A DNA stretch of 29,229 nt from a virus. The translations under genes and the position numbers were made by a program. The stretch covers positions 1-29,229 of IMG/VR virus record IMGVR_UViG_3300030109_002855. One strand, given 5' to 3'. A model generated the notes under the pieces. The model ran no database searches. It was not told the origin of the DNA and saw only the letters and a program-made list of their open reading frames with translations. Below, in pieces: positions 1 to 20,265 of the stretch; the stretch's first letter is position 1, and the number at the start of each line of letters is the position of its first letter.

Positions 1-77
1 AATTTCTTTTTTTCTTTAGGTTCTAGTTTTTCTAACAAACCACTATCAGCCTTTTGAAGTGTATATTGCCAACTCAT
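1..77 (-). CDS. N-terminal fragment of a tagged structural-module protein
   Basis: Only the first 25 codons are inside the window; the gene continues past position 1. It begins MSWQYTLQK, a member of the W-x3-L-x-K N-terminal tag family seen throughout the minus-strand module. A lysine/glutamate-rich stretch follows. The ATG overlaps the TGA of the preceding 453-aa gene (ATGA), as at many junctions here, which supports the start and translational coupling. Nothing can be said about the body of the protein. Confidence 0.7.
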   Translation of the reverse strand, partial: MSWQYTLQKADSGLLEKLEPKEKKK

Positions 78-1435
78 TCTAAATCCCCCATGACTTCTCT
101 TAATATAGCAAACTTTTCAGGTAAAGACTCAACTTCAACAGTATGTACATCATTTCGTAAGAACGACTTATCTAAAGAGATTTCCCTTAATTCTGCTAAA
201 TAATACATAAATGCATATAATTCAGTAGTTCTTTTTAATTCCATACGATAATCCTCATCTTTTATGTCTGCTACACCTATACTAACATCTTTAGGTAAAC
301 CTTCTTCATCAAACATAGGGTCAGGTTCAGCCAAGTAATAGGATTCTTTAGCCTCTTCATCATCTAGTAAATCACCAAGTCTTATTTCTATTGCATCAGC
401 ATAATCAATAATCTTAGACTCTTTCATTTCAGTAAATATTTTTACCTGTGATTTAGTGGCATCAGGATTCATTGCTTGTTTAATATCTGTTGCTACCTTT
501 CTATAATTTAAATCTATAAACCCTCTTAATCGTTTTGTGTCTCCAACTTTTATCTGTTCTAATTTAAATCCTTTCTTAGTAAATATTTCTTTCAACAATT
601 CTATTCCTGTTTTACCAGAATACTCATCATTTAATACTTCTAACAATCTAACAGGGTGTCTACCTTGTTCATATTTATCTAGAAATTTAAATATATTTTT
701 TTGGGAAAATAGTCTAGACTCACTTTGTAATGTATCCAATTCACCTCTATAATTTTCTATTCTAGAGTCTTTACCATATCTATTAAGTAAATTAGTTAAT
801 GTGGAGATAAAAGAGTAATCACTAGAAGAACCTCTTTCCTTTCTAGATAGTTGGTCTTCTAACTTATCGAGCGTAGATATAGCAGTTTCTAATTTGCTGA
901 ATATATTTTCATCGGCTACAAACGCATCATAGATAGCCTTTTCATCTGAACCTTCTTCTAAATTTTCTACAAAATTATCTAATTGTTGTTGATTTTCTTC
1001 TGAACGCATATCATCAGACATACCTGCTAATAAAAACATAGCAGCATTATCTTGTTTAATTTTTAGAATTTGTTTAAACACTTTACGATGTGCTGTAATG
1101 GCTACAAATATTTTACTCATATCTATCTTAGGTTCTCTTACAGGTTCTCCTGAATCTCGATTAAATCTTTGTGAACCTAATCTAGTATATCCACCTGAAG
1201 CAGTCATCAAATCATCAGATAAAGATTCTCGAAGTCTATCTTTCCAATTACCATCAGTGACTCTAACAACATTTTCCAAATTGTTAACGAAGTTATCAGG
1301 AACTTTACTAGACAATAAATCTTTTACTTTAGGAGAAAATGTTTTTTTAATTTGGTCTAATACAAAAGCAGTTTTAGCCGTAGGCTCTTTATGACCGCGA
1401 ATATCTGCTTTCAATAGTATAGACACACTTACCAC
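74..1435 (-). CDS. hypothetical protein downstream of the portal gene (453 aa)
   Basis: I do not recognise this protein. It is soluble-looking, rich in charged residues and predicted-helix segments, with an acidic C-terminal third (residues about 345-400) and no membrane segment, cysteine cluster or tag. Its place directly after the portal gene is where many tailed viruses put a prohead protease, scaffold or head protein, but no protease motif is visible, so this is only positional inference. The start is uncertain: GTG at 1435 overlaps the previous stop by a few bases, and GTG at 1426 lies just after GTGGTAA and is equally plausible. No ATG is available near the N-terminus. Confidence 0.75.
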   Translation of the reverse strand: MVSVSILLKADIRGHKEPTAKTAFVLDQIKKTFSPKVKDLLSSKVPDNFVNNLENVVRVTDGNWKDRLRESLSDDLMTASGGYTRLGSQRFNRDSGEPVREPKIDMSKIFVAITAHRKVFKQILKIKQDNAAMFLLAGMSDDMRSEENQQQLDNFVENLEEGSDEKAIYDAFVADENIFSKLETAISTLDKLEDQLSRKERGSSSDYSFISTLTNLLNRYGKDSRIENYRGELDTLQSESRLFSQKNIFKFLDKYEQGRHPVRLLEVLNDEYSGKTGIELLKEIFTKKGFKLEQIKVGDTKRLRGFIDLNYRKVATDIKQAMNPDATKSQVKIFTEMKESKIIDYADAIEIRLGDLLDDEEAKESYYLAEPDPMFDEEGLPKDVSIGVADIKDEDYRMELKRTTELYAFMYYLAELREISLDKSFLRNDVHTVEVESLPEKFAILREVMGDLE

Positions 1436-1641
1436 TTATTTTCTGTATTTCTTTTTCTCTTTGGCATTAAAATTACGTCAGGAATATCATTGCTGTCAGG
1501 AATTTTCTTTTCTACTGTTCTAGACAAATCGATACCTACTGCATCTAAATCTCTATTCACTTCTACCTTACGTGCATTATACACTTTTGCTCTTGCTTCT
1601 GCTAGTTCTCTTTCTAATTGTCTTACACTTTTTTCAGTCAT
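1429..1641 (-). CDS. small coiled-coil protein between portal and 453-aa gene (70 aa)
   Basis: A 70-residue charged protein. Residues 4-35 form a heptad-like helix (RQLERELAEARAKVYNARK), followed by an extended basic tail ending in N-K-W. A clear AAAGGTGATTAA ribosome binding site precedes the ATG, one of the best examples of the GGTGAT type used in this genome. It lies after the portal stop with a 43-base gap and overlaps the next gene. Small coiled-coil proteins next to portals can be scaffold or head-assembly factors; the function here is unknown. Confidence 0.75.
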   Translation of the reverse strand: MTEKSVRQLERELAEARAKVYNARKVEVNRDLDAVGIDLSRTVEKKIPDSNDIPDVILMPKRKRNTENKW

Positions 1642-1684
1642 TTAATCACCTTTTTTTAAATATGCTAGAATAACAACTCCGGCA

Positions 1685-3331: not shown

Positions 3332-3387
3332 ATCTTATCCCCCTAATTATTAATTATCCGATTTCCCAAACGCATATTAAAGTTCCT

Positions 3388-4755
3388 TTATGTGCTATTT
3401 ACTCCTATCAGATTTGAGGCATCATCTCTCTCTAACTTATCCATCCAACTCATTTTAGAATTTTCTTCTAGTTTACTTATAGAATCCAAATCAATATCAA
3501 AAGCAGAAAAGTCAAAGTTTGCATTATCCCTATGATTATGATATTTCATTAATTTAAATAATTCTCCCATTCTACCTTTAGCCCAAGGTTGTTTCTTAAA
3601 TCCTTTTTTGATTCTAACTAACTCTAGTAATATATCTGCATTCGGGCCTTTCATTCTAAAGTGTGGCCTACATTTAGTCAATAATTCATGCACATCTTTT
3701 TGGGAATAGAAGTTTAATCTGTTTACAGGTCTAGTATCTTGTGGAGATTTTTGGTCTAAATGTAATCTACCCATACCTAAACACTTGTGTAACTCTAACA
3801 TGAAAGCCTTACCTCTATCTCCCGTAGCAACTAAACCAACTCTAGGATTGTTATTTCTATCCATAGTAATATATCCATCAGAATCTATGAATGCCGCAGT
3901 ATAGGCCCAAACATTCTTTTTGATATCATCATTTATCTTATAGTATGCTCCATCCACATTAGTAATATTTTGGCTAATTGCTAATTTAGAGATAATTTGA
4001 GGAGAAGACATTTTCTTAAGATTATCAGGCAATGCTTCATGTATTTCTCTAGAAGATATTCCCGGTGAATTACAAACAGATTTCAAAATGTTTTCTTTAA
4101 TTCTTTTCTTAATTCCTTTTGTAGAACTTTGAGATTTTATAATTCTCTTAAAATCTTTTTTTGCTGATGTCATTTCTTTACTAATAGAAATATATTGTTT
4201 ATTTAAAGGCATGTCCTTTATTTCTAATTTATGTTCCCAATACTTACAAAGAGAATCTATAACCTGTCTTTTGGTATCTATATCTTGAATTTTACTAAGT
4301 TTAATTATTTGTGATTCTGAGCAAGTCATATCTTTAATTACAGACTTATATGGACTAGCCCAATAAATTTTATCAATACTTTTATCTAAATGGTCTGCGT
4401 AGGCATCTATTAAATTATCAATAGATTTACTCATATCCAATCTTTTTTCACCTTTAAGAGTTCTTCTAAACATTCTCATATCTTTCACCAAATCAGGAAT
4501 GTTCTTACTCTCTATTGTATATTCCTTAAGTGATAAATCTAATATTCTATCTGCCTTTGTATATGACATGTTGAAATCTTCTGCAAATTCTTTTACTAAA
4601 TCACTATGACTAGATAATGGTCTACCATCAAGCCATAACATCTTGGCTTCTAGTTCCATCTCCTGCTCTAGTTGACGTTGTTCGGCAGTAAGTTCTTCAA
4701 CTTCCTTTACTTTGTCTGTTAATGCTTGTAGTTGTTCAGAATTAGGAGTCGCCAT
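3388..4755 (-). CDS. LAGLIDADG homing endonuclease with winged-helix region
   Basis: A single LAGLIDADG motif is visible at residues 284-295 (AYTAAFIDSDGY), followed by a domain to about 410 with basic patches (KGFKKQPWAKGRMGEL), as in homing endonucleases that cut DNA to spread their own gene. Residues about 216-275 resemble a winged helix (ISSREIHEAL, then a strand ending DGAYYKI). Residues 50-80 form another helix-turn-helix-like segment. With one motif it would have to work as a dimer. It is a free-standing gene between intact TerL and portal genes, with its own GAGGT ribosome site. The N-terminal 200 residues are unexplained; a fused small terminase is conceivable but unproven. Near the C-terminus, MSWMDKLE (435-442) resembles the structural tag. 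Confidence 0.8.
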   Translation of the reverse strand: MATPNSEQLQALTDKVKEVEELTAEQRQLEQEMELEAKMLWLDGRPLSSHSDLVKEFAEDFNMSYTKADRILDLSLKEYTIESKNIPDLVKDMRMFRRTLKGEKRLDMSKSIDNLIDAYADHLDKSIDKIYWASPYKSVIKDMTCSESQIIKLSKIQDIDTKRQVIDSLCKYWEHKLEIKDMPLNKQYISISKEMTSAKKDFKRIIKSQSSTKGIKKRIKENILKSVCNSPGISSREIHEALPDNLKKMSSPQIISKLAISQNITNVDGAYYKINDDIKKNVWAYTAAFIDSDGYITMDRNNNPRVGLVATGDRGKAFMLELHKCLGMGRLHLDQKSPQDTRPVNRLNFYSQKDVHELLTKCRPHFRMKGPNADILLELVRIKKGFKKQPWAKGRMGELFKLMKYHNHRDNANFDFSAFDIDLDSISKLEENSKMSWMDKLERDDASNLIGVNST

Positions 4756-6211: not shown

Positions 6212-6475
6212 TCACCAATCTCTACAAGCCATACATCTAGCAGAGTAATCACTTCTTTTACATGTAGAACAATTATGCCTTGCCCTAAACGATTTCCTTC
6301 TCTTACCTTTTCTTTTACCTGAAACAGTTACTCCTCTTTGACCCCAATGTACTCTCTTATATCCACCCTTACCATTAGGAACACATTTCATCCATTTCTT
6401 ACCCTTACGAGTAGATGATGTTTTTTTTGTAGCCCTAGTACATTGCCCTTCTTTAATTACTTCAAACCAAGTCAT
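6212..6475 (-). CDS. small, very basic, tagged zinc-ribbon protein (87 aa)
   Basis: Starts MTWFEVIKE, matching the W-x3-I-K tag. The middle is extremely rich in Lys/Arg/Gly (for example SGKRKGKRRKSFRAR), and the C-terminus has C-x2-C and C-x2-C pairs (NCSTCKR, RCMACRD), a likely zinc knuckle. A tagged, strongly basic protein next to terminase could be a DNA-condensing internal virion protein; that is inference. Its ATG overlaps the stop of the 145-aa gene by four bases. The GGTGAT of terL overlaps its own stop. Confidence 0.8.
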   Translation of the reverse strand: MTWFEVIKEGQCTRATKKTSSTRKGKKWMKCVPNGKGGYKRVHWGQRGVTVSGKRKGKRRKSFRARHNCSTCKRSDYSARCMACRDW

Positions 6476-6909
6476 GTTGTACCCTTCCTTCTTTTATATG
6501 TTTTACATGCTGCACATGTTGGTCTACATCTTCTTTTAGTACCTTTAGATGCATCCTTTCTACCACAAGGTTTTGGCCCACCTTTTTGACCACAACTAGA
6601 ACAATCTATCCAACCTCTTTGAGTTTTACCACCTTTTTCTTTTCCACCTCTTCTAGAAAACCAACCGTGTAATCCTTCATCTTTTTCTCTCTTGAAATTG
6701 TCTCCACCTTTCTTTACAGAATTACCCCAGTTCTTTGCTCCCACTTTTCTACACTGAACTAAAGCACCACTTGCATAGGCAGAAGGCCATTTCTTGTAAC
6801 GCCTCCTAACTTTATAATAACAAGCATCTTGTTTTTTACCCGACCTTTGAGTTTTACGTCTGCGGGGTTTTTTCTTCTTAGCCTTTAAAACATCAAACCA
6901 TACATCCAT
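6472..6909 (-). CDS. basic tagged protein of a family widespread in large marine viruses (145 aa)
   Basis: Begins MDVWFDVLKAKKKKPRRRK: the tag followed immediately by a polybasic stretch. The body contains motifs that I recognise from small basic proteins common in marine phages and giant viruses: WPSAYASGALVQCRKVGAKNW, then GLHGWFSRRGGK, then PCGR and CRPTCAAC. I cannot assign the Pfam number with confidence (DUF5872/DUF6321-like). Several cysteines suggest metal binding. The function is unknown; DNA binding inside the virion is plausible given its charge. The TAATG junction with the upstream GNAT gene indicates coupling. Confidence 0.85.
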   Translation of the reverse strand: MDVWFDVLKAKKKKPRRRKTQRSGKKQDACYYKVRRRYKKWPSAYASGALVQCRKVGAKNWGNSVKKGGDNFKREKDEGLHGWFSRRGGKEKGGKTQRGWIDCSSCGQKGGPKPCGRKDASKGTKRRCRPTCAACKTYKRRKGTT

Positions 6910-7469
6910 TATATCACCTCAGTTTTTATTGCAGCCCACCAACTAGAATTATGAACATAATATTTTTCTAATGTACCTACATTACCATTTGCTGCACCAA
7001 TAGAAATCTCATTAATTAGTTCATCAGGTAATTCTGATTCATCCAATTGCCTAAATCCTTCTGATAGATAATGTTTCATAGCAACTTTACTTGAAAAATT
7101 TACTATAAGTTTTTTATTACCCTTTACTCTAATCATTTCACGGAATAATAATTTCATTAATCCTCTACCTCTAGAAGTATCTCTAACATGGATTCCTGAA
7201 CCTAATAAAAACTCTTTATATGGGGCATAACCAATCACACCTACTGGCTTATCTGTATCTTTTTCATATGCAACATGATGTACTGAGGGTTGTGTTGCAA
7301 ACTTACCATCGGAAGGTATATTTCTAAACCTATTAACGCGAGATTTAAATCCAGTATAGCCATCTTTTGTGAAAACTTTGACTGCTTCATCTTCTGACAT
7401 TGTTTTAAAATAAATATCATCAGCAGTATAATTAGTGGAGGGAAGTTCGGGATATTTTTCTTCTTCCAT
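6909..7469 (-). CDS. GNAT-family N-acetyltransferase with C-terminal tag-like motif
   Basis: A GNAT fold is indicated by motif A, residues 93-110, with the acetyl-CoA pyrophosphate loop signature VRDTSRGRGLMKLLF, a preceding strand pair (HHVAYEK...PVGVIGYA), and motif B-like MKHYLSEGFRQLDE at 131-144. Length 186 is typical. The substrate is unknown; it may modify a virion or host protein. Oddity: the last ten residues are WWAAIKTEVI, matching W-x3-I-K (W177 to K182), the motif that other proteins here carry at the N-terminus. AGGTGATTAA precedes the ATG, overlapping the stop of the 917-aa gene. Confidence 0.85.
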   Translation of the reverse strand: MEEEKYPELPSTNYTADDIYFKTMSEDEAVKVFTKDGYTGFKSRVNRFRNIPSDGKFATQPSVHHVAYEKDTDKPVGVIGYAPYKEFLLGSGIHVRDTSRGRGLMKLLFREMIRVKGNKKLIVNFSSKVAMKHYLSEGFRQLDESELPDELINEISIGAANGNVGTLEKYYVHNSSWWAAIKTEVI

Positions 7470-7473: not shown

Positions 7474-10227
7474 TCACCTAAAGTTACCTTTCAAATAATA
7501 TACTGCCTCTTCAGATATACCATGCTTCTTAGCAATGTTCGACATTGAATCTAATTCAGTAACAATGGATTCTATATCATTAGCAGTCAATTCTATCTTG
7601 TGCATATCATGTACATTATTGATGGCACTATTAACATGATAGAAATTATCTAGTTTAGATATACCATAATACACAGGCTTATTCAGCATTTTTCTAATAG
7701 AGTCATGTGATTCTAATAAATTAACTTCAATATTACTTTTGATAAGTAATCCCTTAGTTGTTAAATTATCATAACTTTGTAAAAATGAAGACACTAAGTT
7801 TTTACTTGCAGATGTACCTTCTTCAGTTTTACCATATCCTGATGAAGCCAATCCTGAATCTTTTGCTCTAGGATTCAACAAAGCATCTCCCTGATAATCA
7901 CCTCTTCTTTTTCTAATATGTTTAACTAATACCGCCAAAGGATATAATTTATCGTTGTTATATTCTTTTGCTAATTCCTCAACAGGAGTACCATTAAACT
8001 CTACATCTATATTCAAATTATTTTTTTCCTTTATTTCTTGAAGTGCTGCACCAAACTCAATATCTATGTCTTTGGTATGTTGTGTTTCAAAAATTAAATC
8101 TAATTGTTTAGCGGCAAGTTCCATTTTAGATTTTATTCCTGATAATCTTGAGCCGGGTGCAACATTTCCAATCTCTTCTAATAATTCAGTTAATCTTGTC
8201 AATGCCTTAACTGATAATGTTGCAGTACCCATTTCAGCATAACGCGCTAATAATGTTGTGAATGCAGTAGGTTCTTTTCCTTCCTGAGACATGAAAAAGT
8301 CCATCACCTTATTAGTTACATATTCAGGCTCATCATCGAAAGGCATATTTTCACTAAGTAATGGTCTAATTACATAATCTATTAATCCATCAACATAGTC
8401 ATCATACTCATTTTCAATTTCAGTCAAAACTTCCTTTAACTTAGTCCCTTTCCTTCCAGTAAATAAAGAAGAATATGTTTGTTCCTTTGCTCTTGATGTA
8501 TCATCTTTACCAGTTCTACCTGCACTTGTTCTTGCGCCAGTAGGCATAGCAGCCTTTTCTGATGCAGTTCCTAAGTTTAGAATATCATACATTATATCAA
8601 AATGTTCTAATAATTTTTTATTTAGACCTTCTTTATTTTCTAAATTAAACTCATCAACTAATTTGTTTGTTAATGGGAGATAATAGAAGTCCTTTACTTT
8701 ATCTTCCGTAGCAAACTCTTCTAAATCATCTATGTAATTTTCCAATTTATTAAAATCAGAATCATTTAGTTCTACATCTATTTTAGTAGCATACTTTTTT
8801 GCTCTACGCTTTAATGATTGAATATCTTTCTTGAACGCAGCGACTCTTCCAAAAGCACCTTGTTCCCAAACATATTGAAATAGTGGGTCAACTTCCTTTA
8901 GAGTTTTGAAAGATTCTATATCTTGGAATAATGCGGTTTCAGTTTTATTACCAAACGCTTCTCTAGTTGCTAAATCTGTTTGAGTTTTTGTAGATTGTTC
9001 TGCAAACTCAGGTTCTATCCTAACATCCATTGAATCATAATCACTCGCAGCAGAAGTAGCAGTATCTAATTCAATACTTTGAAACGCCTCTTGGTCTTTC
9101 AAATACCCTTCTAAAAAGTCCCCTAACAATAATATCGCCTGAATACTTCTATCATCTTTTTCAATACGCTGCTTAGGTACTTTAACAATATAATTATCTT
9201 CATTAGTTAAACGATTATCCTTGAGTTGTGCGATTCGTTGAAGAATGCTAGGCATATTCTCCTCAGACACTCTTTCACTAGAAAGATATTTTTCATATGC
9301 TTCTATAAACTCATCTTGAGAAGAAATATATTTTTCAAAATCAGAATGTTTCTTTTCCCAATAATCATATATCTTATCTCTTCTATCTAATGACTTTAAA
9401 GATAGAGAACCAACTAATAAATCAACACTTACTTTCCTAATATCCTCTTGCCCTGAAACATTAATAGATTTCAATTTCCTAAGAATTGTTGATAATCGTG
9501 TTTTCAAATGTGAATAATTATTAGTCAAATCTTCTAGTTGTGAAATATGAGCGTTTAACTTTACAGGGTCGCTCAAATAATTATCTCTTCCTTCATCAGA
9601 TAAAGATATTTTATTAATTGGAGTTTTAATTCCTTTGATTGCAGTTTTAACTGTGACACTTTTACCATCAAAGAGTAGGTTTCTTAAAATAGGTCTTAGG
9701 GTATCTTTAATGATTGTATCTGTCGAGGCAATATCCCCAAAGGCAACCTTAAGTCCTTCTGATGAGGTTCTAGCATAATCATAGAATAAATCTAACACTT
9801 TTCTTTTGGTTGATTCAGGAAATTTTGCAAACCCTTTGTATTTACTTATCTCATCTCTTACTGCATTTTTATACGATGTTGGTGTAAACTCTCCTGTTTC
9901 TTTATCTGCTGTACTTCCAAAAAATTTAGGATTAATTTTAATATCTTGTGTTCTGCCTATTTTACCCGCCATACCAGTTTCAGGATTATCTTGTTTTTCT
10001 GCTAATAAAATTGCGTATGCTACATCATTAGGAGGTGTAGTTTCTCTTACATGTTGTATAAATTCCCTTCTTATAGGTTTAATATCAACATCTTCTTGTT
10101 CAGAACCACCTGTAACATAAGGCATTAATATTGAGTTTAATGAAATAGTTTTACCTCTTATTATCGCATCCATAACTTTATCAAAGAAATCTATATCTTC
10201 TAACCAAGTATCAAACTGCTCACTCAT
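7474..10227 (-). CDS. very large helical structural-module protein (917 aa)
   Basis: Unrecognised. It is long, highly charged and apparently mostly alpha-helical, with many short Lys/Glu-rich helices, no cysteine clusters, no signal peptide and no membrane segment. Residues 3-22 (EQFDTWLEDIDFFDKVMDAI) form an amphipathic helix that contains a tryptophan but does not match the tag consensus. The ATG at 10227 is chosen over GTG at 10242 because GAGGTG lies seven to eight bases upstream; it overlaps the preceding gene by eight bases. Size and position beside another large helical protein suggest a head-internal, ejection or tape-measure-type protein. A tape measure would normally show hydrophobic segments, which are absent. 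Confidence 0.8.
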   Translation of the reverse strand: MSEQFDTWLEDIDFFDKVMDAIIRGKTISLNSILMPYVTGGSEQEDVDIKPIRREFIQHVRETTPPNDVAYAILLAEKQDNPETGMAGKIGRTQDIKINPKFFGSTADKETGEFTPTSYKNAVRDEISKYKGFAKFPESTKRKVLDLFYDYARTSSEGLKVAFGDIASTDTIIKDTLRPILRNLLFDGKSVTVKTAIKGIKTPINKISLSDEGRDNYLSDPVKLNAHISQLEDLTNNYSHLKTRLSTILRKLKSINVSGQEDIRKVSVDLLVGSLSLKSLDRRDKIYDYWEKKHSDFEKYISSQDEFIEAYEKYLSSERVSEENMPSILQRIAQLKDNRLTNEDNYIVKVPKQRIEKDDRSIQAILLLGDFLEGYLKDQEAFQSIELDTATSAASDYDSMDVRIEPEFAEQSTKTQTDLATREAFGNKTETALFQDIESFKTLKEVDPLFQYVWEQGAFGRVAAFKKDIQSLKRRAKKYATKIDVELNDSDFNKLENYIDDLEEFATEDKVKDFYYLPLTNKLVDEFNLENKEGLNKKLLEHFDIMYDILNLGTASEKAAMPTGARTSAGRTGKDDTSRAKEQTYSSLFTGRKGTKLKEVLTEIENEYDDYVDGLIDYVIRPLLSENMPFDDEPEYVTNKVMDFFMSQEGKEPTAFTTLLARYAEMGTATLSVKALTRLTELLEEIGNVAPGSRLSGIKSKMELAAKQLDLIFETQHTKDIDIEFGAALQEIKEKNNLNIDVEFNGTPVEELAKEYNNDKLYPLAVLVKHIRKRRGDYQGDALLNPRAKDSGLASSGYGKTEEGTSASKNLVSSFLQSYDNLTTKGLLIKSNIEVNLLESHDSIRKMLNKPVYYGISKLDNFYHVNSAINNVHDMHKIELTANDIESIVTELDSMSNIAKKHGISEEAVYYLKGNFR

Positions 10228-11917: not shown

Positions 11918-12204
11918 TTCAATTGCCCCGCTAACCTATTTAATAGTCCAACAATACTACGAATCAAAAATTCGTCATGTCTTGGAAGTTTACCTCTATT
12001 TTCTTCCAACACCTGAACATACTCTTCTATGTATTTTGCAAATAATTCATACTGTGAGTCAATAAGAACTTGAGGGTATTCATAAGAATCCCCAGCGTGT
12101 TCTTTAACACTTTTTTCAAAATTAGTAATTATATTATTTGCTTCTGTATAATATTGCATCATATCTGGCCTACTACCACTCTTTAGTGTGTCTTGCCAAC
12201 TCAT
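11914..12204 (-). CDS. small tagged helical protein (96 aa)
   Basis: Starts MSWQDTLKS, a near-ideal example of the tag, then a helical acidic domain with aromatic residues (YYTEANNIITNFEKSV, YELFAKYIEEYVQVLEENR) ending in LLNRLAGQLK. No metal motif or membrane segment. Its ATG overlaps the TGA of the zinc-HTH gene. The function is unknown; a small head-associated protein is likely from context. Confidence 0.8.
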   Translation of the reverse strand: MSWQDTLKSGSRPDMMQYYTEANNIITNFEKSVKEHAGDSYEYPQVLIDSQYELFAKYIEEYVQVLEENRGKLPRHDEFLIRSIVGLLNRLAGQLK

Positions 12205-12865: not shown

Positions 12866-12979
12866 CTATCTATTTTCTCTCAATTCTTTGAAATCTTCTG
12901 CGTCAATGTCTCCATCGTCATCAACATCTAGTTCCTTTTGTTTTCCTTTTAATTTTAGTATCTCTTGCCACTTAGTCAT
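12866..12979 (-). CDS. 37-residue tagged protein with an EF-hand calcium loop
   Basis: Begins MTKWQEILK, the tag with one extra residue, then a short lysine linker, then DVDDDGDIDAED, which matches the canonical EF-hand loop with ligands at loop positions 1, 3, 5, 9 and 12, Gly at 6 and Ile at 8. It ends FKELRENR. The protein is little more than tag plus calcium loop. Its ATG overlaps the stop of the 58-aa gene, and its stop runs into the AGGTG of the zinc-HTH gene, so it sits tightly in the operon. Single EF-hand loops usually pair, so dimerisation or docking on a partner is likely. Confidence 0.75.
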   Translation of the reverse strand: MTKWQEILKLKGKQKELDVDDDGDIDAEDFKELRENR

Positions 12980-13148
12980 AGTTAAACCTCTCATTCAAAT
13001 ATTCTTTTCTTGCGGAACACCCACAATCTACACCTGTTTTTTCTGAAACATAATCAACGGCTTTTTTGATTCCTGTTTTTGTTGTGATTCTTTCAACGGT
13101 ATCACCTAATCCTCTATCTTGCCTTTTAAGATATCTTTTCCAACTCAT
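12972..13148 (-). CDS. small tagged protein of the GLGDT/DCGC phage family (58 aa)
   Basis: Starts MSWKRYLKR (tag), followed by GLGDTVERITTKTGIKKAV, then DCGCSARKEYLNERF. The GLGDT-x-I-T-x-x-T-G-I and CGC-x2-R-x3-LN patterns are ones I recall from small uncharacterised proteins in many marine and Bacteroidetes phages, where the CGC...LN end is strongly conserved. The function is unknown. Unlike what I recall of those relatives, this one carries the local tag, as if the virus had added its own sorting peptide. The ATG is clear and the stop overlaps the next ATG. Confidence 0.75.
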   Translation of the reverse strand: MSWKRYLKRQDRGLGDTVERITTKTGIKKAVDYVSEKTGVDCGCSARKEYLNERFNYD

Positions 13149-13158: not shown

Positions 13159-13695
13159 TCATATTTTATCCAACATCGTATCAAATTCTTTTACATCTTC
13201 AAACTCAAAATCTTCCATCATAAATAAATCATCTAAATAAGTTCTAAAATCTACTAGCCGTTTAGCAATATCTCTCAAAGTTCTTTTCATTGCATCATGG
13301 TCTTCTTGATTCTTTTCAGTTCTAGGAGTTTTTCTAAATTGTTCTTGAATAACCCTAATAGTATCAGCCACATTTTTCATATGTCCTTTTAATTCTTGCA
13401 TTGCTTCTGCTGATAATTTTGCCTTTATCACGGTAGTTTCTTTACTTAGATGTTTTAATGCTTCTTGACTCAACTCATAAAAATGATACAATTTTTTACT
13501 TTCACCTTCAACATGTTCTTTACCACTCATTAAAGTTCCATCAGGATGCTTATGTGTTTCACCAATATACTGCTTTCCATCTTCAAAGAAATGTCTTTCA
13601 CCTTTTCCTTTCTTTACTTCTACAATCATACCATAGGTTTTGCATGGGTCTTCCCCACAACCACAATTTTTCTTAAGTACATTTTCCCAAGTCAT
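13159..13695 (-). CDS. tagged structural-module protein with Cys-rich and DGK/THKHPDG motifs (178 aa)
   Basis: The chosen start is ATG 13695, giving MTWENVLKK (tag). An upstream ATG at 13722 is in frame, but GGTGGT precedes 13695 and this start overlaps the previous TGA as ATGA. Residues about 9-20 are NCGCGEDPCKTYG, possibly a metal site. Then a beta-rich stretch, FFEDGKQYIGETHKHPDGTLMSGKEH, contains the repeated DG-x-G/H turns seen in some phage virion proteins. The second half is helical and charged. The function is not known; a decoration or head-tail protein is possible. Confidence 0.8.
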   Translation of the reverse strand: MTWENVLKKNCGCGEDPCKTYGMIVEVKKGKGERHFFEDGKQYIGETHKHPDGTLMSGKEHVEGESKKLYHFYELSQEALKHLSKETTVIKAKLSAEAMQELKGHMKNVADTIRVIQEQFRKTPRTEKNQEDHDAMKRTLRDIAKRLVDFRTYLDDLFMMEDFEFEDVKEFDTMLDKI

Positions 13696-14783
13696 ACTAC
13701 CACCTTCATTATAGTTCTCCAATCTTTAACTTCTCTATCACTACTTGTTAATTTTTCATCTTCTTCAGGTTCTTCTTTAACAGGAGGTTTCCAACCTGCA
13801 AGTTTAGCCATATGATTAACTTGTCTTCTAGAAATATAAATATAGAAATCTTCAACAAAACCCGGAGTACCTTTAGCATTCAACAAGGTTTTAACTTTCT
13901 CACTTTCAGTATTATTTTGTACATTTATTGGTGTACCCATTAAACGGGTTCTAGCCCTAGTAGTAGCAAAGTTTCCTGCCTTTGTGGTAAACTCATCATC
14001 CCTAACCATAACTTTCATCATTTGTCTAATTTCTGAAATACCCTCATATGCAAACTTTGCTGCACCTGCCTGTTCTATTTTTACAGGAGCATCTTCTTCA
14101 ATATGATGTACTACATTTTTTATTGCTTTAGCACCTGCGGTTACAACAGCAACTAACCCCGGCTTATTAAATGGTGAAAGGCTGCCATCACCATAAATTG
14201 CTTGCCACATTGGTGGTGTAGCCTCACCCTTACTTGTATCCCACCAAGAATCATCTGCTGCTCTAACACTTTCTACTTTGTTTTTATAGTCGGTTCTATA
14301 TTCAATATAATCATCAGTTCTATAATGACCATATATTGTTTTCTTTACTGGTTTTTTAGTTCTAGGTCTAATACCTACAATACCCTCGAATGCAATATTT
14401 CTAGGATTCAAATCACTATCAGTTGCACCATGCTTCATTAGTACACCTATTATCGCTTCAAACTCTTTAGATTCCTGTGGGCTGAAAGTAGGTTGTTTCG
14501 CCATCCTTTCTAAAAGTTCTATCTCTTTAGCCAAACCCGGTGTTTCTTTCGGGCCGGAATTACCCATTATTCTACCATCAATACCATGTTGCATTAGAAT
14601 ATCATAAAGAGTTCCCTTGAATCTAGTTACTCCCATACTTGCTGCTGAAACTCCTTTAGCGGCAGTTTTCCAATCATTAAATAATTTAGAAAACTCTTCG
14701 CCTGAATACTCTACGCGAGATTTACCATTACCCATTGAAATAACAGGTTCAACTTTCTTTAGTGGTTTTTTTCTTTTTGCCAC
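13692..14783 (-). CDS. structural-module protein with C-terminal tag-like motif (363 aa)
   Basis: Unrecognised. The N-terminus is basic (MAKRKKPLKKVEP). The middle mixes helices with a tyrosine-rich strand region (YGHYRTDDYIEYRTDYKN) and an alanine/valine segment (about 200-225). The C-terminal tail is acidic. The last ten residues, DWRTIMKVVV, match W-x3-M-K (W355 to K360), the motif carried at the N-terminus by its downstream neighbour. The start is GTG at 14783 with a strong GGAGG seven bases upstream. Its size would suit a capsid protein, but no HK97-fold signature can be read by eye. Confidence 0.75.
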   Translation of the reverse strand: MAKRKKPLKKVEPVISMGNGKSRVEYSGEEFSKLFNDWKTAAKGVSAASMGVTRFKGTLYDILMQHGIDGRIMGNSGPKETPGLAKEIELLERMAKQPTFSPQESKEFEAIIGVLMKHGATDSDLNPRNIAFEGIVGIRPRTKKPVKKTIYGHYRTDDYIEYRTDYKNKVESVRAADDSWWDTSKGEATPPMWQAIYGDGSLSPFNKPGLVAVVTAGAKAIKNVVHHIEEDAPVKIEQAGAAKFAYEGISEIRQMMKVMVRDDEFTTKAGNFATTRARTRLMGTPINVQNNTESEKVKTLLNAKGTPGFVEDFYIYISRRQVNHMAKLAGWKPPVKEEPEEDEKLTSSDREVKDWRTIMKVVV

Positions 14784-14958
14784 GCTTTAACCTCCTATTA
14801 ACAGTTTTATTATTAAAAAGAGGACTTGTAGCAGCAGAAGTAGTAGAAACTGTACCTGACATCTTTAATTCTTTTATTTCTTTTTCTAAGTTATCTAAAA
14901 AAACATTTGCATCTTGTTCTTTCTTAATAGAATCGAACCAATAAGATAATTCTTTCAA
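14749..14958 (-). CDS. small tagged protein with basic tail (69 aa)
   Basis: Begins MKELSYWFDSIKKEQ, with the tag (W-F-D-S-I-K) shifted inward by six residues. A short acidic helix follows (VFLDNLEKEIKELK), then a Ser/Thr/Ala linker and a polybasic tail (RRLKRGKKKKTTKES). The start is TTG at 14958 preceded by GAGGTGG, the second probable TTG start in this operon. The basic tail overlaps the beginning of the 363-aa gene. DNA or RNA contact by the tail is plausible. Confidence 0.7.
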   Translation of the reverse strand: MKELSYWFDSIKKEQDANVFLDNLEKEIKELKMSGTVSTTSAATSPLFNNKTVNRRLKRGKKKKTTKES

Positions 14959-15104: not shown

Positions 15105-15791
15105 TTACTCCCTCTTAATGGTATCTTTCCAATCTAATGATTTGTATTCTCTCATTTTATCCTGCCAAGTTTCTACATCTTCTATAACAAACTTGTCTGA
15201 TACGTCTTTTAGGGGTTCAGGGTCTTTAGCAGTTAAATCCTCTAATCCACCCATATCTTTTATTTGCTCAACAATTAACATATCGTATGCTCTAATGAAG
15301 GTATGTCCTACATAATTCTTAAACTCAGATGATTCTGACAGTTGTTTTAAAGCATGGCTAATAAGTCGCTTTAAGTCAAGTTGCTCAGTATTAGATAGTT
15401 CCCCTTCCATAACTTTTTGTAATATTTTTTCTCTTATCTTACCATCCATTTCTGCTGTTGCTGCATCAAATAGACCTATTTCTTCTAATTGTTTTATTGT
15501 TTCTTCACTTAAATCCTTAGTTGATGTGTCTAAAGACATAGGTTCTTCATTTTCATCTAATTCTTCCATCTGCTCTTTAGCACCTTGTAAAGAAAGGGTT
15601 AATGGTTCTCCTAGTATTGGTACAACGAATGAAACTAAGGTTTCTTCTGTTAGTTTACCAACAGCAAATTTATTAAAATCTTCTAACGCTAAACCCGATA
15701 AATCCAAAGCAGTTTCTTCTACAAATCCACCTAATCTATTGAATATAGGTAAGAAGCCAGTAGAAGATAATACAGTACGATAATCAACCAT
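15105..15791 (-). CDS. helical structural-module protein with C-terminal tag-like motif (228 aa)
   Basis: Unrecognised. With ATG 15791 (GTGGTG just upstream; ATG-less GTG/TTG starts up to 15818 are possible) it begins MVDYRTVLSSTGF. It is acidic and helical, with a LDENEEPM acidic loop and a leucine-rich central helix bundle. The extreme C-terminus SLDWKDTIKRE contains W221-x3-I-K226, matching the tag, and twelve residues earlier TWQDKMRE is a weaker second copy. Possible head-associated or scaffold-like protein. Confidence 0.75.
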   Translation of the reverse strand: MVDYRTVLSSTGFLPIFNRLGGFVEETALDLSGLALEDFNKFAVGKLTEETLVSFVVPILGEPLTLSLQGAKEQMEELDENEEPMSLDTSTKDLSEETIKQLEEIGLFDAATAEMDGKIREKILQKVMEGELSNTEQLDLKRLISHALKQLSESSEFKNYVGHTFIRAYDMLIVEQIKDMGGLEDLTAKDPEPLKDVSDKFVIEDVETWQDKMREYKSLDWKDTIKRE

Positions 15792-15851
15792 TACACCACA
15801 ACCCGCTATCACTAGCAAACGGTCAACATTGGCTAAAGGATATAATGCTGT

Positions 15852-15999: not shown

Positions 16000-16758
16000 C
16001 TAATTCCATTTAATTTCTATTTTTTTATAATGGTCTAAAATTTCTTTTATAGCAACATCAAGCCCATACTCTTCTACTGGCATATCCCCATAATCATCTA
16101 TAAACACTGCTATACTATTACTCATATGAAACTCATAGGGATATTTTTCTGAATGTATGTGAAGACCTTTTCTTTTACTTACACCACCCCACTCATTAAA
16201 TTCTAAATTTCCTGCACCATTATATTCTCTAGGGTCATAATGTATTTCCCAATCACCAACTCTATATGGGTCTTTGATAAACATACCACCATTGACGACA
16301 GTAGATACTTGAGCAATTAAATCTAAAGCGCGACAATAAACTTCTTCAGGTATTTTCTCTGCCTGTTTATTCATTATATATCTTGATTCCTCTACTGTTA
16401 TTTCAAAATGATTTTTATTCTTAACACCTTTAGTCTCTACATTTGTACCAGTCATAGGATATAGATAAAATTGAGATACAAAATGGTCAGGGCCACGTAG
16501 TTCATTATAACCTGTGGGAGATGGTTCTCTAATAATACGATAATATTCAGTTCCTCCTCTATTCCCTTTATCACGAACTTTATCGAATATACTATTATCA
16601 TCATACAGTGGGGTATTTTTTATTTTATTTTGTAGTGCGAACATTCTATCTTTACAGTCATCTTTATCTTCATCAGGTTTGTTTACATCAAAAGGTTTCA
16701 CTTTGAACTTAGGTAAGTTAACTGTTCTCATCTCATTTTTCAAAATATCAAACCACAT
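16000..16758 (-). CDS. tagged paralog family, member 1 (252 aa)
   Basis: One of five tandem paralogs. It has MWFDILKN (tag), then a conserved lysine-rich linker (LPKFKVKPFDVNKPDEDKDD) ending in a cysteine, then a variable domain that includes IPEEVYCRALDLI, the family's second signature, and a C-terminal strand ending IEIKWN. The ATG at 16758 is preferred over GTG 16767 because GGAGTGA lies seven bases upstream. The variable domain is probably beta-rich (many Tyr, Gly, Asp and short strands). A virion surface or decoration role is inference only. Confidence 0.85.
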   Translation of the reverse strand: MWFDILKNEMRTVNLPKFKVKPFDVNKPDEDKDDCKDRMFALQNKIKNTPLYDDNSIFDKVRDKGNRGGTEYYRIIREPSPTGYNELRGPDHFVSQFYLYPMTGTNVETKGVKNKNHFEITVEESRYIMNKQAEKIPEEVYCRALDLIAQVSTVVNGGMFIKDPYRVGDWEIHYDPREYNGAGNLEFNEWGGVSKRKGLHIHSEKYPYEFHMSNSIAVFIDDYGDMPVEEYGLDVAIKEILDHYKKIEIKWN

Positions 16759-16763: not shown

Positions 16764-17525
16764 TCACTCCGTAAACTTAATATTAATATTATTTATATAT
16801 TCTGCAATTAAATCTAACCCGTCTCTAATCACTTCCTGTTTGAAAGTATAGTTATTCTTGTACATATCAGACTTTTTAGTATTATATTTTAGGTCTACAT
16901 CTAAATCACAATCCATTCTACTGAGGATACTATTATTATTGTGTACTAATCCTCTTACTCTTTCAAAACTGTCTACCACACTAAAAAAACCATTTCTAAC
17001 ACCAAATGTACCATCATTATCGTTTCCAGTACTATCCTTAGTAAAATATATTATAGTACCATCTTCTGACTTAAATTCTACATCACGTTGTAGTACATCT
17101 AATATTCTGCAATAACTTTCTTCACTTATTTTAGTTTCACCAAAAGTTTTGGCTTCAGTGTCGTCACCAAAAGTTTCAGCAAATGACGCATTGTCAATTA
17201 CAACACGTATTCTAAAATAATAATTTCCAGTATAATTAGGATACATTTCAGGTTTTGGTATATATGTTATGCTTAATCTATGCAGATGGGCGTAACTTTT
17301 TTTGTAAATAAGCACATTAAAGTATGGGTTTTTTATTTTCTCTTCTAATGAACTTAGTTCCGATTGGTTAAAAAATTGCCTATCATAAAACTTCTTTTCT
17401 ATCTCTTTGACTTTTCGTTCGCAATCATCATCTTCTTCATCAGGTTTATTCGCATTAAAAGGTTTAACTTTAAATTTGGGTAAGTTAATACTCCTCATTT
17501 CATTTTTTAAAATATCAAACCACAT
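16764..17525 (-). CDS. tagged paralog family, member 2 (253 aa)
   Basis: The same plan as its neighbours: MWFDILKNEMRSINLPKFK at the N-terminus, acidic linker PDEEDDDC, a variable central part, ISEESYCRILDVLQRD at about 135-150, and a C-terminal INIKFTE. The central region (YKKSYAHLHRLSITYI, YYFRIRVVIDN) looks like alternating beta strands. GGTGAT precedes the ATG. The first dozen residues are almost identical to members 1 and 3 while the middle is hardly alignable, a mosaic pattern of constant head and variable body. Confidence 0.85.
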   Translation of the reverse strand: MWFDILKNEMRSINLPKFKVKPFNANKPDEEDDDCERKVKEIEKKFYDRQFFNQSELSSLEEKIKNPYFNVLIYKKSYAHLHRLSITYIPKPEMYPNYTGNYYFRIRVVIDNASFAETFGDDTEAKTFGETKISEESYCRILDVLQRDVEFKSEDGTIIYFTKDSTGNDNDGTFGVRNGFFSVVDSFERVRGLVHNNNSILSRMDCDLDVDLKYNTKKSDMYKNNYTFKQEVIRDGLDLIAEYINNINIKFTE

Positions 17526-17529
17526 ATAA

Positions 17530-18285
17530 TCACCATTCTATTTTTACGTCTTCAAAATGACTTTCTATTTTACTCAATGCCGCAGCAACACCTTTAGCAG
17601 TATCCCAACCAATTGGGGCGTTATCTTGACCTGTCTTCCACATATTTCCAAAATCTGACGTACGTACTGATAACGCGTTCCAAAGTGTAATATAATCTAC
17701 TTCACCCTTTGTTATAGTAATCGTTAGAAGTTTTCTTATACGTATCCCTGTCGGGTCTTCCATCACAAGGTCATTATTTTTATATTGTATTTTCCAATCG
17801 CCTACACTCTCACGGTCATATTGTCCAAACCTTTGTGGAGAACCCTTACTAATCATATCTAACGCCTTACAATAAACTTCTTCGGGTATTTCGTTCACAT
17901 CTTGGTCTATATCTTGATGGCTATCTTCCGTTATATATACCTCAACATGTGTATCAGGGTCGGCAAACCCATCACTTAGTGTAGGATATAAATGTAATTT
18001 TGCATAAAAAAGTTCGTCATCATCTATCATGCTATCCATTCCAAGATATTGAAATCTACCCTCATCTGCCATTTTTTCAATCTCATCAAATAAACTTTGT
18101 ATGCTACCTTTTGGATTATTGTGAACAAGTTTTATTTGCTCTGATTTTTTCAATACTTCATTTAAGAATCTATCTTTACAATCATTATCTTCTTCATCAG
18201 GCTTATTTACATTGAAGGGTTTAACCTTAAACTTGGGTAAATTAATACTCCGCATTTCATTTTTAAGAATATTAAACCAACTCAT
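17530..18285 (-). CDS. tagged paralog family, member 3 (251 aa)
   Basis: Starts MSWFNILKNEMRSINLPKFK, with a linker ending PDEEDNDC, the family signature IPEEVYCKALDMISKG in the second half, and a C-terminal VKIEW. The ATG at 18285 overlaps the TGA of member 4 (ATGA) and is preferred over the in-frame GTG at 18294. The variable part is acidic. The repeated end -[IV]-[EK]-[IW]-W across the family suggests a conserved last beta strand. Confidence 0.85.
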   Translation of the reverse strand: MSWFNILKNEMRSINLPKFKVKPFNVNKPDEEDNDCKDRFLNEVLKKSEQIKLVHNNPKGSIQSLFDEIEKMADEGRFQYLGMDSMIDDDELFYAKLHLYPTLSDGFADPDTHVEVYITEDSHQDIDQDVNEIPEEVYCKALDMISKGSPQRFGQYDRESVGDWKIQYKNNDLVMEDPTGIRIRKLLTITITKGEVDYITLWNALSVRTSDFGNMWKTGQDNAPIGWDTAKGVAAALSKIESHFEDVKIEW

Positions 18286-18908
18286 ATAGACCACTTCATT
18301 CTTTCAATAACCTCTGGAAGTCCTTCAGGAATATCATCATTACCAACCCACACTAAACCTAATTCTACTTTGATATACCTATCTTCGTTATAATTAACAT
18401 TATCTGTTAAAAAAAAGTATTGGTTAAATTCATTTATATAATGCTCGTTATAATCTTCTATGTTTGTAATCAACTTATGTTTAAGAAAATTTTCATATCG
18501 CATCTGATGTGATGTTCCGTTTGCATAAAAATTTTGATAATAAAATTCTTTCTTCGTTGAAGGTTGATTACTTTTCTCTTGAAGCAAATCTAATAACCTA
18601 CAATACGCCTCTTCAGGTAATAAATCTACATTTTTACTATGAACATTTTGTTGTAATCTAATAAATTTTTTAGCATCTTCTTTATGGTAATAGGTAATAT
18701 AACCCGTACCACTAGGTTTGTAAGAATCATACTCTTCCGATATCTTAGTTGGGGGTTGAAATCTTTTAGCAGTATTATACAATTCCATAATTTTATCTTT
18801 ACATCTAGTTTCTTCGTCTTCAACTTTTGGTTTGTCAAAGGGTTTGACCTTGAACTTAGGTAGATTAACAGCCCTTGCTTGGTTTTTTAAAACACCAAAC
18901 CAATTCAT
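18282..18908 (-). CDS. tagged paralog family, member 4 (208 aa)
   Basis: Starts MNWFGVLKNQARAVNLPKFK, with a shortened linker (KPKVEDEETRC), family signature LPEEAYCRLLDLLQEK, and C-terminus ERMKWSI. The ATG at 18908 overlaps the TGA of member 5. It is shorter than members 1-3. It shares ETRCKDKIMEL with member 5, so these two form a subgroup. Confidence 0.85.
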   Translation of the reverse strand: MNWFGVLKNQARAVNLPKFKVKPFDKPKVEDEETRCKDKIMELYNTAKRFQPPTKISEEYDSYKPSGTGYITYYHKEDAKKFIRLQQNVHSKNVDLLPEEAYCRLLDLLQEKSNQPSTKKEFYYQNFYANGTSHQMRYENFLKHKLITNIEDYNEHYINEFNQYFFLTDNVNYNEDRYIKVELGLVWVGNDDIPEGLPEVIERMKWSI

Positions 18909-19522
18909 ATAGGCCACCTCATATTATCTGTTTCCTGTCTAAGTGCCTGACCAATCTTATCTGTTTCCTCAGAACTTAGTGGTGGGGTTTCATCGTACAT
19001 TCCATCTTTCCAATTATACCAATCATACCATAAAAGAGACAACCTTAAATTCAGTATATTATGACTCGTTTGTTTCGTGATAGCCAATTTTTGCATATAA
19101 AAATCTTCATTGTCACTTAAATCAACATTAATGTTATAATCCATTAAAGTAGTCTTACCTTCACCGGCTTTAAGTAAATCTAACGCTGTACAAAATACTT
19201 CTTCAGGTATATTATCTATGTCACCAACAGCATAAAAACGGTCAATCGTCACTCCCGTTCCTGTTTTTTTACCACCATAATACATCGAAGTATAACTACT
19301 ATCTTCTATTCTATGAATAGGGTTAATTTCTTTTTTAACTCTAACAAATTCACCACCTATTTCACTAGGAAACTGATACCTTCTAACAAAATCAGCAATT
19401 TCCATAATTTTATCTTTACATCTAGTTTCTTCTTCGTCCGGCTTTGCAGCATTGAACGGTTTGACTTTGAACTTAGGTAAATTAACTAAACCTTGGTTTT
19501 TTAGAATATTAAACCAAGTCAT
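18905..19522 (-). CDS. tagged paralog family, member 5 (205 aa)
   Basis: Starts MTWFNILKNQGLVNLPKFK, linker KPDEEETRCKDKIMEI, signature IPEEVFCTALDLLKAG, C-terminus DNMRWPI. The central part has several Tyr/Thr-rich strands. The ATG overlaps the TGA of the upstream repeat protein. It is closest to member 4. It is the most upstream paralog and so the first of the family to be translated on the long transcript. Confidence 0.85.
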   Translation of the reverse strand: MTWFNILKNQGLVNLPKFKVKPFNAAKPDEEETRCKDKIMEIADFVRRYQFPSEIGGEFVRVKKEINPIHRIEDSSYTSMYYGGKKTGTGVTIDRFYAVGDIDNIPEEVFCTALDLLKAGEGKTTLMDYNINVDLSDNEDFYMQKLAITKQTSHNILNLRLSLLWYDWYNWKDGMYDETPPLSSEETDKIGQALRQETDNMRWPI

Positions 19523-20265
19523 TGTTCTGCCTCCTTTTCTGCTTCAGGTGTAAGATATGTGGGTAATTTACTATTGTTTGTTAGTCTTTCCTTCATTTTC
19601 CCATGAAACTTAGAAGCATCAGTATCTCCTTCTACTCTCTTCCTAGTCATCATTCTAGCATGATACTTTCGTTTTTCTTCATCTGTGAAATCATCGTATT
19701 CACTAACATCTCTATGTTGTAAATCTTTATACTCATTTCCTATTGATTCATCCCCTTCAAATGGTGGAGTATAGTTTGGATTATTCTTCATTCTCATATA
19801 CATTCTAAAAGCAATGTTACTTTTATCAGACCTTCCGTGTTCTGTAATTTCTTTATGATACAATCTAGCCCAATATTTGTGTTTCTCATCTCTTGAATAA
19901 TTATCATACATTTCTTTAGTAGTAGAAGGCATTCTCTCAATTGCATCATATTGTGGTTTAACCATAAATCTATTCTGTTCGTCTTCTAAAGAATAATAGA
20001 TTTCTTTAGTGGAATCACGTTTCGTTCTTTGCAATTGTCTATAATGAAATCTCTCTAATTCTCTAAGCCTTCTAATTTCGTCGTCTTGTAAAGGTGGGGC
20101 TTGAACTGCTCTTTCAACTTGTCTCCTATAATGGGCACGCATAGATTCATGATACTTTTCTTTATTTTTATCATCCATTCTATAATATTCATCCTTAGTT
20201 AAAGTAGACCATCTGCCGCCATAAGGATTAGGCATTTTTAGAATACTAAACCAACTACTACTCAT
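19519..20265 (-). CDS. tagged repeat protein, first gene of the structural operon (248 aa)
   Basis: With ATG 20265 the protein begins MSSSWFSILKM (tag after three serines). The body contains four copies of a helical unit of about 21 residues with a Lys-Glu-x-Tyr start and KYHARM-like end: about 21-42 (TKDEYYRM...KYHESM), 85-103 (TKEIYYSLEDEQ), 114-135 (TKEMYDNYS...KYWARL) and 185-205 (SEYDDFT...KYHARM). It is very rich in Arg, Lys, Tyr and Glu. GGGTAG upstream is a poor ribosome site, so the start is less certain; the in-frame alternative lies at 20286. It resembles repeat-containing small virion proteins, but I cannot name it. Confidence 0.75.
   Translation of the reverse strand: MSSSWFSILKMPNPYGGRWSTLTKDEYYRMDDKNKEKYHESMRAHYRRQVERAVQAPPLQDDEIRRLRELERFHYRQLQRTKRDSTKEIYYSLEDEQNRFMVKPQYDAIERMPSTTKEMYDNYSRDEKHKYWARLYHKEITEHGRSDKSNIAFRMYMRMKNNPNYTPPFEGDESIGNEYKDLQHRDVSEYDDFTDEEKRKYHARMMTRKRVEGDTDASKFHGKMKERLTNNSKLPTYLTPEAEKEAEQ

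Follow-up and report, generated by a model that had tools for sequence, protein, structure and literature searches.

A two-part terminal tag on late proteins of a magrovirus-type archaeal virus, a probable prohead cargo address

The 29,229-nucleotide stretch of DNA analysed here (positions 1 to 29,229 of the IMG/VR record IMGVR_UViG_3300030109_002855; hereafter the window, i.e., the whole stretch) comes from a virus record of 71,554 bases and raises a simple question: why do fifteen of its proteins begin with variants of one short motif, M-[S/T/N]-W-x-x-[I/V]-L-K, hereafter the tag? The original prediction, made from the window itself, was that the tag is a virion or prohead sorting signal defining a cargo set. 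This reading is supported, by inference, by the finding that the tryptophan part of the motif also ends a protease-scaffold fusion whereas its I-L-K part recurs at maturation-type sites. We put at roughly 0.7 the probability that the tag is a prohead cargo address of magrovirus-type viruses which combines a mimic of the scaffold end with a site for the maturation protease. The tag probably includes a cleavage site, which corrects the earlier view of it as a sorting signal.

Docking half and lysine half

As judged from the aligned sequences, the tag is made of two separable halves, W-x-x-I and I-L-K, the cargo tag being the sum of both. The lysine half is found in the major capsid protein (MCP) and in the head maturation protease, whose genes were located via the gene order of a 95.6-kb relative, G012. 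The MCP gene product matches the PHROGs major head protein (E 6.8e-22) and the protease domain matches the PHROGs head maturation protease (best E 4.5e-15). Unique sequences above length limits of 380 amino acids (aa) for the MCP and 340 aa for the protease were aligned, and within this group the residue before the presumed cut (P1) is lysine in all sites. The N-arm of the MCP carries an invariant lysine, K28 (137/137); P3 is L/I/V in 137 sequences and P2 is L/M/I in 136, and the residue after the lysine is A, S, Q, G or T. In the protease, the motif [FL]-x-[IV]-[LIM]-K precedes the domain, with K22 present in 145/145 sequences (one gap), and [KR]-F-[DNE]-[IVL]-[LVI]-K follows it, with K174 present in 146/146 (one unread base at the third place). 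The form KFDILK of the latter, at the protease-scaffold junction, is identical to the commonest tag core, WFDILK, except for the tryptophan. A tryptophan within the eight residues before the lysine occurs in only 1/137 sequences at K28 of the MCP, 0/145 at K22 and 0/146 at K174 of the protease. Three protease ORFs (open reading frames) of 512–535 aa, in G044, G047 and G057, match in two pieces and so appear to contain an insert, the ordinary length being ~400 aa.

Conversely, the docking half is found at scaffold ends, where W-x-x-I is retained mostly without L-K. The C-terminus of the protease-scaffold fusion reads [STDN]-W-x-[DEQ]-[IVLA]-[HN], with the tryptophan in 142/142 ungapped sequences (146 aligned). 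A second, coiled-coil protein of 58–102 aa has W-x-[DEQ]-[IL] near its C-terminus in 130 of 135 unique sequences, and 134/135 also contain a lysine site of the form [LIMV][LIMV]-K-[SA]-G; the seeds of this family were chosen partly by both motifs, so that these counts are not independent. The profile of the fusion matches 57 of the 135 coiled-coil proteins (E <=0.001), via positions 352–407 of 408 in the rows listed.

Among 389 non-redundant tags, proline directly follows the tag lysine once, against 16.7 expected, and is above expectation at the next seven positions, a pattern that fits a scissile bond at this place. The lysine sites themselves extend to more distant viruses. In HVTV-1, HCTV-5 and HCTV-1, the presumed equivalent sites keep lysine at P1, reading [MV]SK/A at both the MCP and the junction. 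This joint change of P2 and P3 at the two sites in three Druskaviridae, two of which have an identical MCP N-terminus, is suggestive only. The tag was found in 0/9 packaging and head proteins of HVTV-1 and in 0/6 vir519 proteins checked; given that the lysine sites are kept, they therefore look older than the tag, as far as these comparisons go.

An AlphaFold2 model of the protease fusion (60-row alignment) has a predicted local distance difference test score (pLDDT) of 65 and a predicted TM-score of 0.40. It contains a domain at ~25–160, mostly at pLDDT 63–88, and a coiled coil at 288–362, and places both K22 and K174 in low-confidence linkers outside the protease domain; the C-terminal helix is predicted to begin at the conserved W388. 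In a Foldseek search with the protease model, herpes proteases rank 2 (Epstein-Barr virus, E 0.009) and 7 (E 0.093), a weak match with no E-value below 0.001; LetB and the remaining PDB hits were taken as chance. The MCP model is poor (pLDDT 56), and its Foldseek leaders are mostly HK97-fold capsids or encapsulins, again with no E-value below 0.001.

Genomic location and carriers of the tag

Nine genomes, that of the window included, were gene-called with a simple codon-score caller. The tag profile was built from the same genomes on a pattern of our choice, and the contrast between strands and positions accordingly carries more weight than the absolute number: a profile score of at least 10 within the first 20 residues was reached 125 times on the late versus 4 times on the early strand. 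Elsewhere in the proteins, this score was reached at 26 internal and 6 C-terminal places on the late strand and at 5 other places on the early strand. Five shuffles of the proteins gave 9.0 hits on average when every position in the set was counted, and chance is not a fair explanation of the tag. The number of tagged late genes per genome is 9 to 20.

The position of the MCP gene divides the late strand further. In the eight genomes with the MCP on the contig, N-terminal tags are carried by 111 of the 270 late-strand genes upstream of the MCP, versus 2/191 downstream of it and 3/399 early genes; C-terminal tags number 8 upstream, 0 downstream and 0 early. Three further genomes, from a more distant MCP branch, have 19, 14 and 23 tagged raw ORFs, all on the MCP strand, one of the 14 being C-terminal. 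Altogether, 12/12 large contigs examined, including that of the window, contain 9–23 tagged genes or ORFs, with few exceptions on the strand of the head genes. Equal tagging of non-structural genes, which would have spoken against a sorting signal, was looked for and not seen, the early strand and the tail side being nearly free of tags.

A DNA-pattern scan for M-S-W-x-D-I-L-K gave at least 120 stretches; 50 records from among the matches listed, mostly new contigs, were tested, and 39 of these belong to the lineage of the tagged viruses. Of the 50, 37 encode the protease and 34 the MCP; the 13 protease-less records include 2 with TerL and 1 with the portal. The other 11 records have 1–5 tagged ORFs in eight cases and none in three, in the stretch analysed. 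The fusion profile also matches short ORFs similar to the coiled-coil protein in many of the 50 records.

Several early-strand observations belong beside these counts. A lone early-strand gene, G009 3003–3740 (minus strand), has MSWFSILK within its start. In G000 29322–30497 (plus strand), directly right of the window, an early-strand protein of ~390 aa carries the tag-like G[KR]WDKILKRK near residue 14–17, which is also found in the replication-side ~390-aa protein of G001 and G012. In G000, G003, G004, G006, G007, G009, G011 and G012, several early-strand proteins have the ending LEEWF, LGEWF, DTDWF, DLDWF, NLDWF or LGDWF. C-terminal hits of this kind, such as LEEWF and DLDWF, were set aside and not taken as tag copies, being PIP-box-like; we take such endings to suggest sliding-clamp binding.

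The tags and tag halves of the window are as follows (all on the minus strand; a slash marks the presumed cut).

51..77, minus: N-terminal tag variant MSWQYTLQK, of a protein truncated at the end of the contig
6452..6475, minus: N-terminal tag MTWFEVIK, of an 87-aa basic Cys-containing protein (6212..6475)
6883..6909, minus: N-terminal tag MDVWFDVLK, of a 145-aa basic Cys-rich protein (6472..6909)
11894..11917, minus: N-terminal tag MSWKRILK, of a 23-aa ORF that is almost only tag, an uncertain gene
12181..12204, minus: N-terminal tag MSWQDTLK, of a 96-aa protein (11914..12204)
12953..12979, minus: N-terminal tag MTKWQEILK, of a small protein (12866..12979), EF-hand-like by eye
13125..13148, minus: N-terminal tag variant MSWKRYLK, of a 58-aa protein (12972..13148)
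13672..13695, minus: N-terminal tag MTWENVLK, of a 178-aa protein (13159..13695)
14923..14958, minus: N-terminal tag variant LSYWFDSIK, of a 69-aa protein with a TTG start (14749..14958)
16738..16758, minus: N-terminal tag MWFDILK, of tandem paralogue 1 (16000..16758)
17505..17525, minus: N-terminal tag MWFDILK, of tandem paralogue 2 (16764..17525)
18262..18285, minus: N-terminal tag MSWFNILK, of tandem paralogue 3 (17530..18285)
18885..18908, minus: N-terminal tag MNWFGVLK, of tandem paralogue 4 (18282..18908)
19499..19522, minus: N-terminal tag MTWFNILK, of tandem paralogue 5 (18905..19522)
20236..20265, minus: N-terminal tag MSSSWFSILK, of a 248-aa protein (19519..20265)
6924..6941, minus: C-terminal tag WWAAIK, at the end of a GNAT acetyltransferase (6909..7469)
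13704..13721, minus: C-terminal tag WRTIMK (..DWRTIMKVVV), of a 363-aa protein (13692..14783)
15114..15131, minus: C-terminal tag WKDTIK (..LDWKDTIKRE), of a 237-aa protein (15105..15818)
1409..1435, minus: VVSVSILLK/AD, an I-L-L-K cleavage half without tryptophan, at the N-terminus of a 453-aa protein (74..1435)
11813..11830, minus: MTNLLK/ALP, a cleavage half without tryptophan, at the N-terminus of a 536-aa protein (10220..11830)

All fifteen N-terminal tags named in the original prediction are thus present on the minus strand, and TerL, the portal and the zinc-HTH protein are, as it claimed, without tag. The strict form W-x-x-[ILVTM]-[LIVMF]-K fits 12 of the 15 starts, and three are looser, those at 77 (MSWQYTLQK), 13148 (MSWKRYLK) and 14958 (LSYWFDSIK). 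The truncated ORF at 77 has a full-length counterpart of 110 aa with an identical start in G012. The description of the carriers as about fifteen unrelated proteins stands for the number of starts and fails for the unrelatedness: the proteins starting at 16758, 17525, 18285, 18908 and 19522 form a tandem array of paralogues with the stretch NLPKFKVKPF in common behind the tag, which leaves about 11 independent carriers. The five paralogues (16000–19522, minus strand) are strongly divergent beyond the common N-terminal stretch, and only three are present in the close relative G012, a pattern suggestive of a cargo gene that is being amplified rapidly.

Beyond the window, the carriers are diverse. 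After masking of the tag, 801 unique tagged late-strand ORFs of at least 40 aa fall into 260 families, 95 with at least two members and 165 singletons; the count refers to ORFs rather than called genes, and some singletons might be spurious or too short to link. When 80 family representatives are aligned with MAFFT, the consensus is MSWxxILK, and hardly any column beyond it is resolved. One ancestral domain extending beyond the tag, which had been named as a finding that would undo the sorting-signal view, was looked for and is contradicted by these tag-masked families. Searches of Pfam gave at most 5 family matches among 180 family representatives (E 0.001), and eleven PHROGs families were matched among 80 representatives.

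The tag was also described as N-terminal. The N-terminal copies hold, but the window has three C-terminal copies as well, which the original prediction did not list. The acetyltransferase ends in SSWWAAIKTEVI; among acetyltransferases linked at E<1e-3, three genes are N-tagged (4 rows, one gene lying in two overlapping stretches) and 6 rows are C-tagged. In one further family, 2 of 3 members are tagged at both ends. The family of the 363-aa protein retains the W motif in 23 of 24 distinct tails, down to ~23% identity, and 18 of the 23 motif-bearing tails have lysine after it. Among N-terminal starts of the form W..[ILVTM][LIVMF]X, X is lysine in 622/731, so the difference in lysine frequency between N-terminal starts and C-terminal tails is modest. 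The lysine half also occurs alone: the I-L-L-K of the 453-aa protein is kept in 9 of 11 sequences (query and near copies counted), and among the 7 sequences of the 536-aa family, query included, five have the lysine site without the W tag, one the full tag and one neither. Two candidates were rejected. The apparent C-terminal tag of the LAGLIDADG-like protein at 3388..4755 (..MSWMDKLERDD..) has the motif in 0 of 71 distinct relative tails (last 13 residues), and a loose C-terminal match was given by small proteins, usually 74 or 77 aa long, that form one family and end in W..[LIVM][VIL].FW.HLW or similar; this family was set aside as unrelated.

Proposed role and rival explanations

We propose that the tag forms a short terminal helix, capped by S/T/N/D, in which W and I/V would make up the docking face, and that it imitates the C-terminal helix [S/T]-W-x-[D/E]-I-H of the protease-scaffold fusion and of the coiled-coil protein. 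Through this mimicry of the scaffold end, tagged proteins would be gathered inside the forming prohead. The [I/V]-L-K half would be the site of an HK97-type maturation protease, cut after the lysine. By this scheme, the protease would cut after lysine in the MCP, at both flanks of its catalytic domain and in cargo with an N-terminal tag; such cargo would be released within the mature head and may leave with the genome. A more tentative extension, which we consider possible and somewhat doubtful, is a packaged-effector system in which any late protein that gains an 8-residue terminus is loaded, released and delivered into the archaeal host; the 9–23 rapidly exchanged proteins would then be a swappable payload, with C-tagged proteins staying bound to the shell.

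Several observations weigh against the proposed role. A cut after the lysine of a C-terminal tag would leave the W half attached, so that processing there is unexplained. Packaging and cleavage are inferred from sequence, the viruses being uncultured, and the confidence of both structure models is moderate or low (pLDDT 65 for the fusion, 56 for the MCP). The location is not perfectly clean: the diverged genome G061 has some tagged ORFs downstream of the MCP, on the MCP strand, and in the eight genomes tag-like motifs occur on three early-strand genes. The motif halves vary too. Phenylalanine replaces the tryptophan in three coiled-coil proteins, the lysine of N-terminal tags is not absolute (622/731), and the position following the presumed cut (P1') is loose in the tags (K, E, A and N being commonest) versus mostly A/S in the MCP. 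Finally, the scarcity of proline after the lysine is also compatible with a helix that ends at that residue.

The last point bears on the rival that survives best, which we nevertheless regard as unlikely, namely that the tag serves docking only: W-x-x-I-L-K would be one capsid- or scaffold-binding helix, its lysine forming a salt bridge, and the likeness to the lysine sites would be convergence on a common hydrophobic-basic pattern. Both the helix-end compatibility of the last tag residues and the motif copies at extreme C-termini, where a cut at the lysine would free almost nothing, suit this explanation. It does not account for the invariance of I/L-L-K at three maturation-type positions that lack the tryptophan, and the scaffold copies, which hold W-x-x-I mostly without L-K, argue that the halves are separate.

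Quite improbable is a tag that docks to another late viral or host complex, e.g., a membrane factory, the portal or the terminase, and has no role in packaging. Such a partner is conceivable in that the receptor is only putative and most tagged proteins are without a known domain (at most 5/180 in Pfam); against it, the W motif is shared with the protease-scaffold fusion and with a coiled-coil protein encoded nearby, a head-assembly-like context, and tail and early genes are almost never tagged. Slightly less probable still is that the tag is a protease substrate only, with W and F occupying the P6 and P5 subsites and head entry occurring by other means. The junction KFDILK, which differs from WFDILK only in the tryptophan, favors this, but the tryptophan is missing before nearly all MCP and protease lysines and present on scaffold ends that lack L-K, and a cleavage site does not need placement at either terminus.

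A nucleotide-level or genealogical artefact, i.e., a translation-start element or a single duplicated gene start, is negligible: the serine before the tryptophan is coded by AGT in 53/55 tags, the start codon is followed by A (ATGA) in 97/127 tagged genes and the window has five genuine paralogues, but untagged genes that begin with MS- use mainly AGT at the second codon as well (58/85), the synonymous codons for I, L and K at the tag positions are mixed and near the genomic background, the tag occurs at C-termini and its carriers form 260 families. The mixed codons indicate that selection therefore acts on the protein; together with the C-terminal copies, they led us to reject a translation-start element.

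Related systems, the virus and neighbouring genes

In herpesviruses, a protease-scaffold fusion has a release site and a C-terminal end that binds the shell, and a short scaffold twin shares this end. The tagged viruses resemble this arrangement in the protease, the release site, the scaffold end and the second protein with the same end, with a weak fold match; the cleavage chemistry differs. We know of no such cargo tags in herpesviruses. In encapsulins, many proteins enter an HK97-fold shell by way of a single short terminal peptide. Here, in contrast, the shell comes from a virus with portal and TerL, and the peptide, which usually stands at the N-terminus, probably undergoes cleavage; an encapsulin cargo system, i.e., a shell without phage packaging genes, was rejected given the presence of the portal and TerL in the window.

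The closest functional parallel seems to be the capsid-targeting sequence (CTS) of phage T4, a short N-terminal propeptide on the differing head-interior proteins IPI, IPII and IPIII in which targeting residues (4 and 7) are followed by processing residues (8 and 10), according to excerpts of PMC9026906. By analogy, the tag most likely works like the T4 CTS, with its carriers presumably in the head interior, the likeness drawn here being functional. In contrast to T4, where the excerpted account has the cut after glutamate (PMC9026906), the cut here would be after lysine, and the tag is present on far more families, occurs also at C-termini and resembles the scaffold C-terminus. The opposite-end tags on homologous GNAT proteins give indirect support, at the level of sequence, to the presumed sufficiency of the tag for entry into the prohead core. 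In HK97, the gp5 cleavage site is K103/S104 (PMC10275583), which parallels the MCP N-arm seen here, where a small residue comes after the lysine, and the protease of HK97 type. In the MCP of HK97 the scaffold forms a domain; here it is apparently fused to the protease, and the site is also found on cargo. In the giant phage SPN3US, eight head proteins lose N-terminal propeptides (AXE motif) to one prohead protease, the propeptides being 20 to 254 residues long in the excerpts of PMC10052503, as opposed to ~8 residues on 9–23 genes per genome here. The two-halved structure of the tag is newly recognised here, and no description of such a tag was found in the titles and abstract openings of the literature searched, which included archaeal viruses and left subscription papers mostly outside.

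If the proposed role is correct, the cargo list of uncultured magroviruses, including orphan virion proteins, could be read from sequence, and the T4 capsid-address idea would extend to archaeal viruses, with cargo that copies the docking end of the scaffold. It would also define the motif at which the maturation protease cuts and supply a short portable tag with which proteins could be brought into HK97-type shells.

As to the virus itself, TerL and the portal of the window match the corresponding PHROGs profiles for terminase and portal. Relatives were drawn from a scan of IMG/VR with TerL, the best 80 of 169 among the pattern matches being used; the portal is present in 12/12 large records searched, which are 87–103 kb in size. 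The genes of G012 form two oppositely transcribed clusters, and GC content ranges from 0.31 to 0.44 across the nine gene-called genomes. In a search of 2066 phage records, the family B polymerase matches haloviral polymerases. The 11 phage records matched by the MCP all belong to archaeal viruses (8 haloarchaeal, 3 infecting methanogens); the three MCP-matched viruses with taxonomy looked up, HVTV-1, HCTV-5 and HCTV-1, are Druskaviridae. The published features of Magrovirales are those of archaeal tailed viruses of ~90–100 kb with two opposed clusters, PolB and kinship to Druskaviridae (PMC10768690), and Aoguangviridae and the order Magrovirales are also outlined in PMC8651126. Set against these descriptions rather than a type genome, the virus of the window appears to fit Aoguangviridae of the order Magrovirales, and its host would be Poseidoniales. 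Magroviruses are described as ubiquitous in the surface ocean in the abstract of PMC10160649. A genome scan for the host gave loci in metagenome-assembled genomes labelled Maricaulis (2) and Altibacter (1), which are most likely misbinned viral contigs and were rejected as a host indication.

Several neighbouring genes deserve mention. The LAGLIDADG-like protein at 3388–4755 of the window (minus strand; AAFIDSDGYI, by eye) is encoded between TerL and the portal, has a best Pfam match no better than E 0.09 and has 114 similar ORFs among the loci studied; at the equivalent position, HVTV-1 has an HNH endonuclease gene. A pyrimidine dimer DNA glycosylase domain (Pfam PF03013, E 2.6e-8) is encoded at 26568–27131 (plus strand). 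At the border between strands, the genes at 23238–23813 (minus strand) and 23934–24491 (plus strand) form a divergent pair whose products resemble each other by eye. Among the relatives, G027 (184,733 bases) contains two different MCPs and two proteases and is probably a chimeric assembly.

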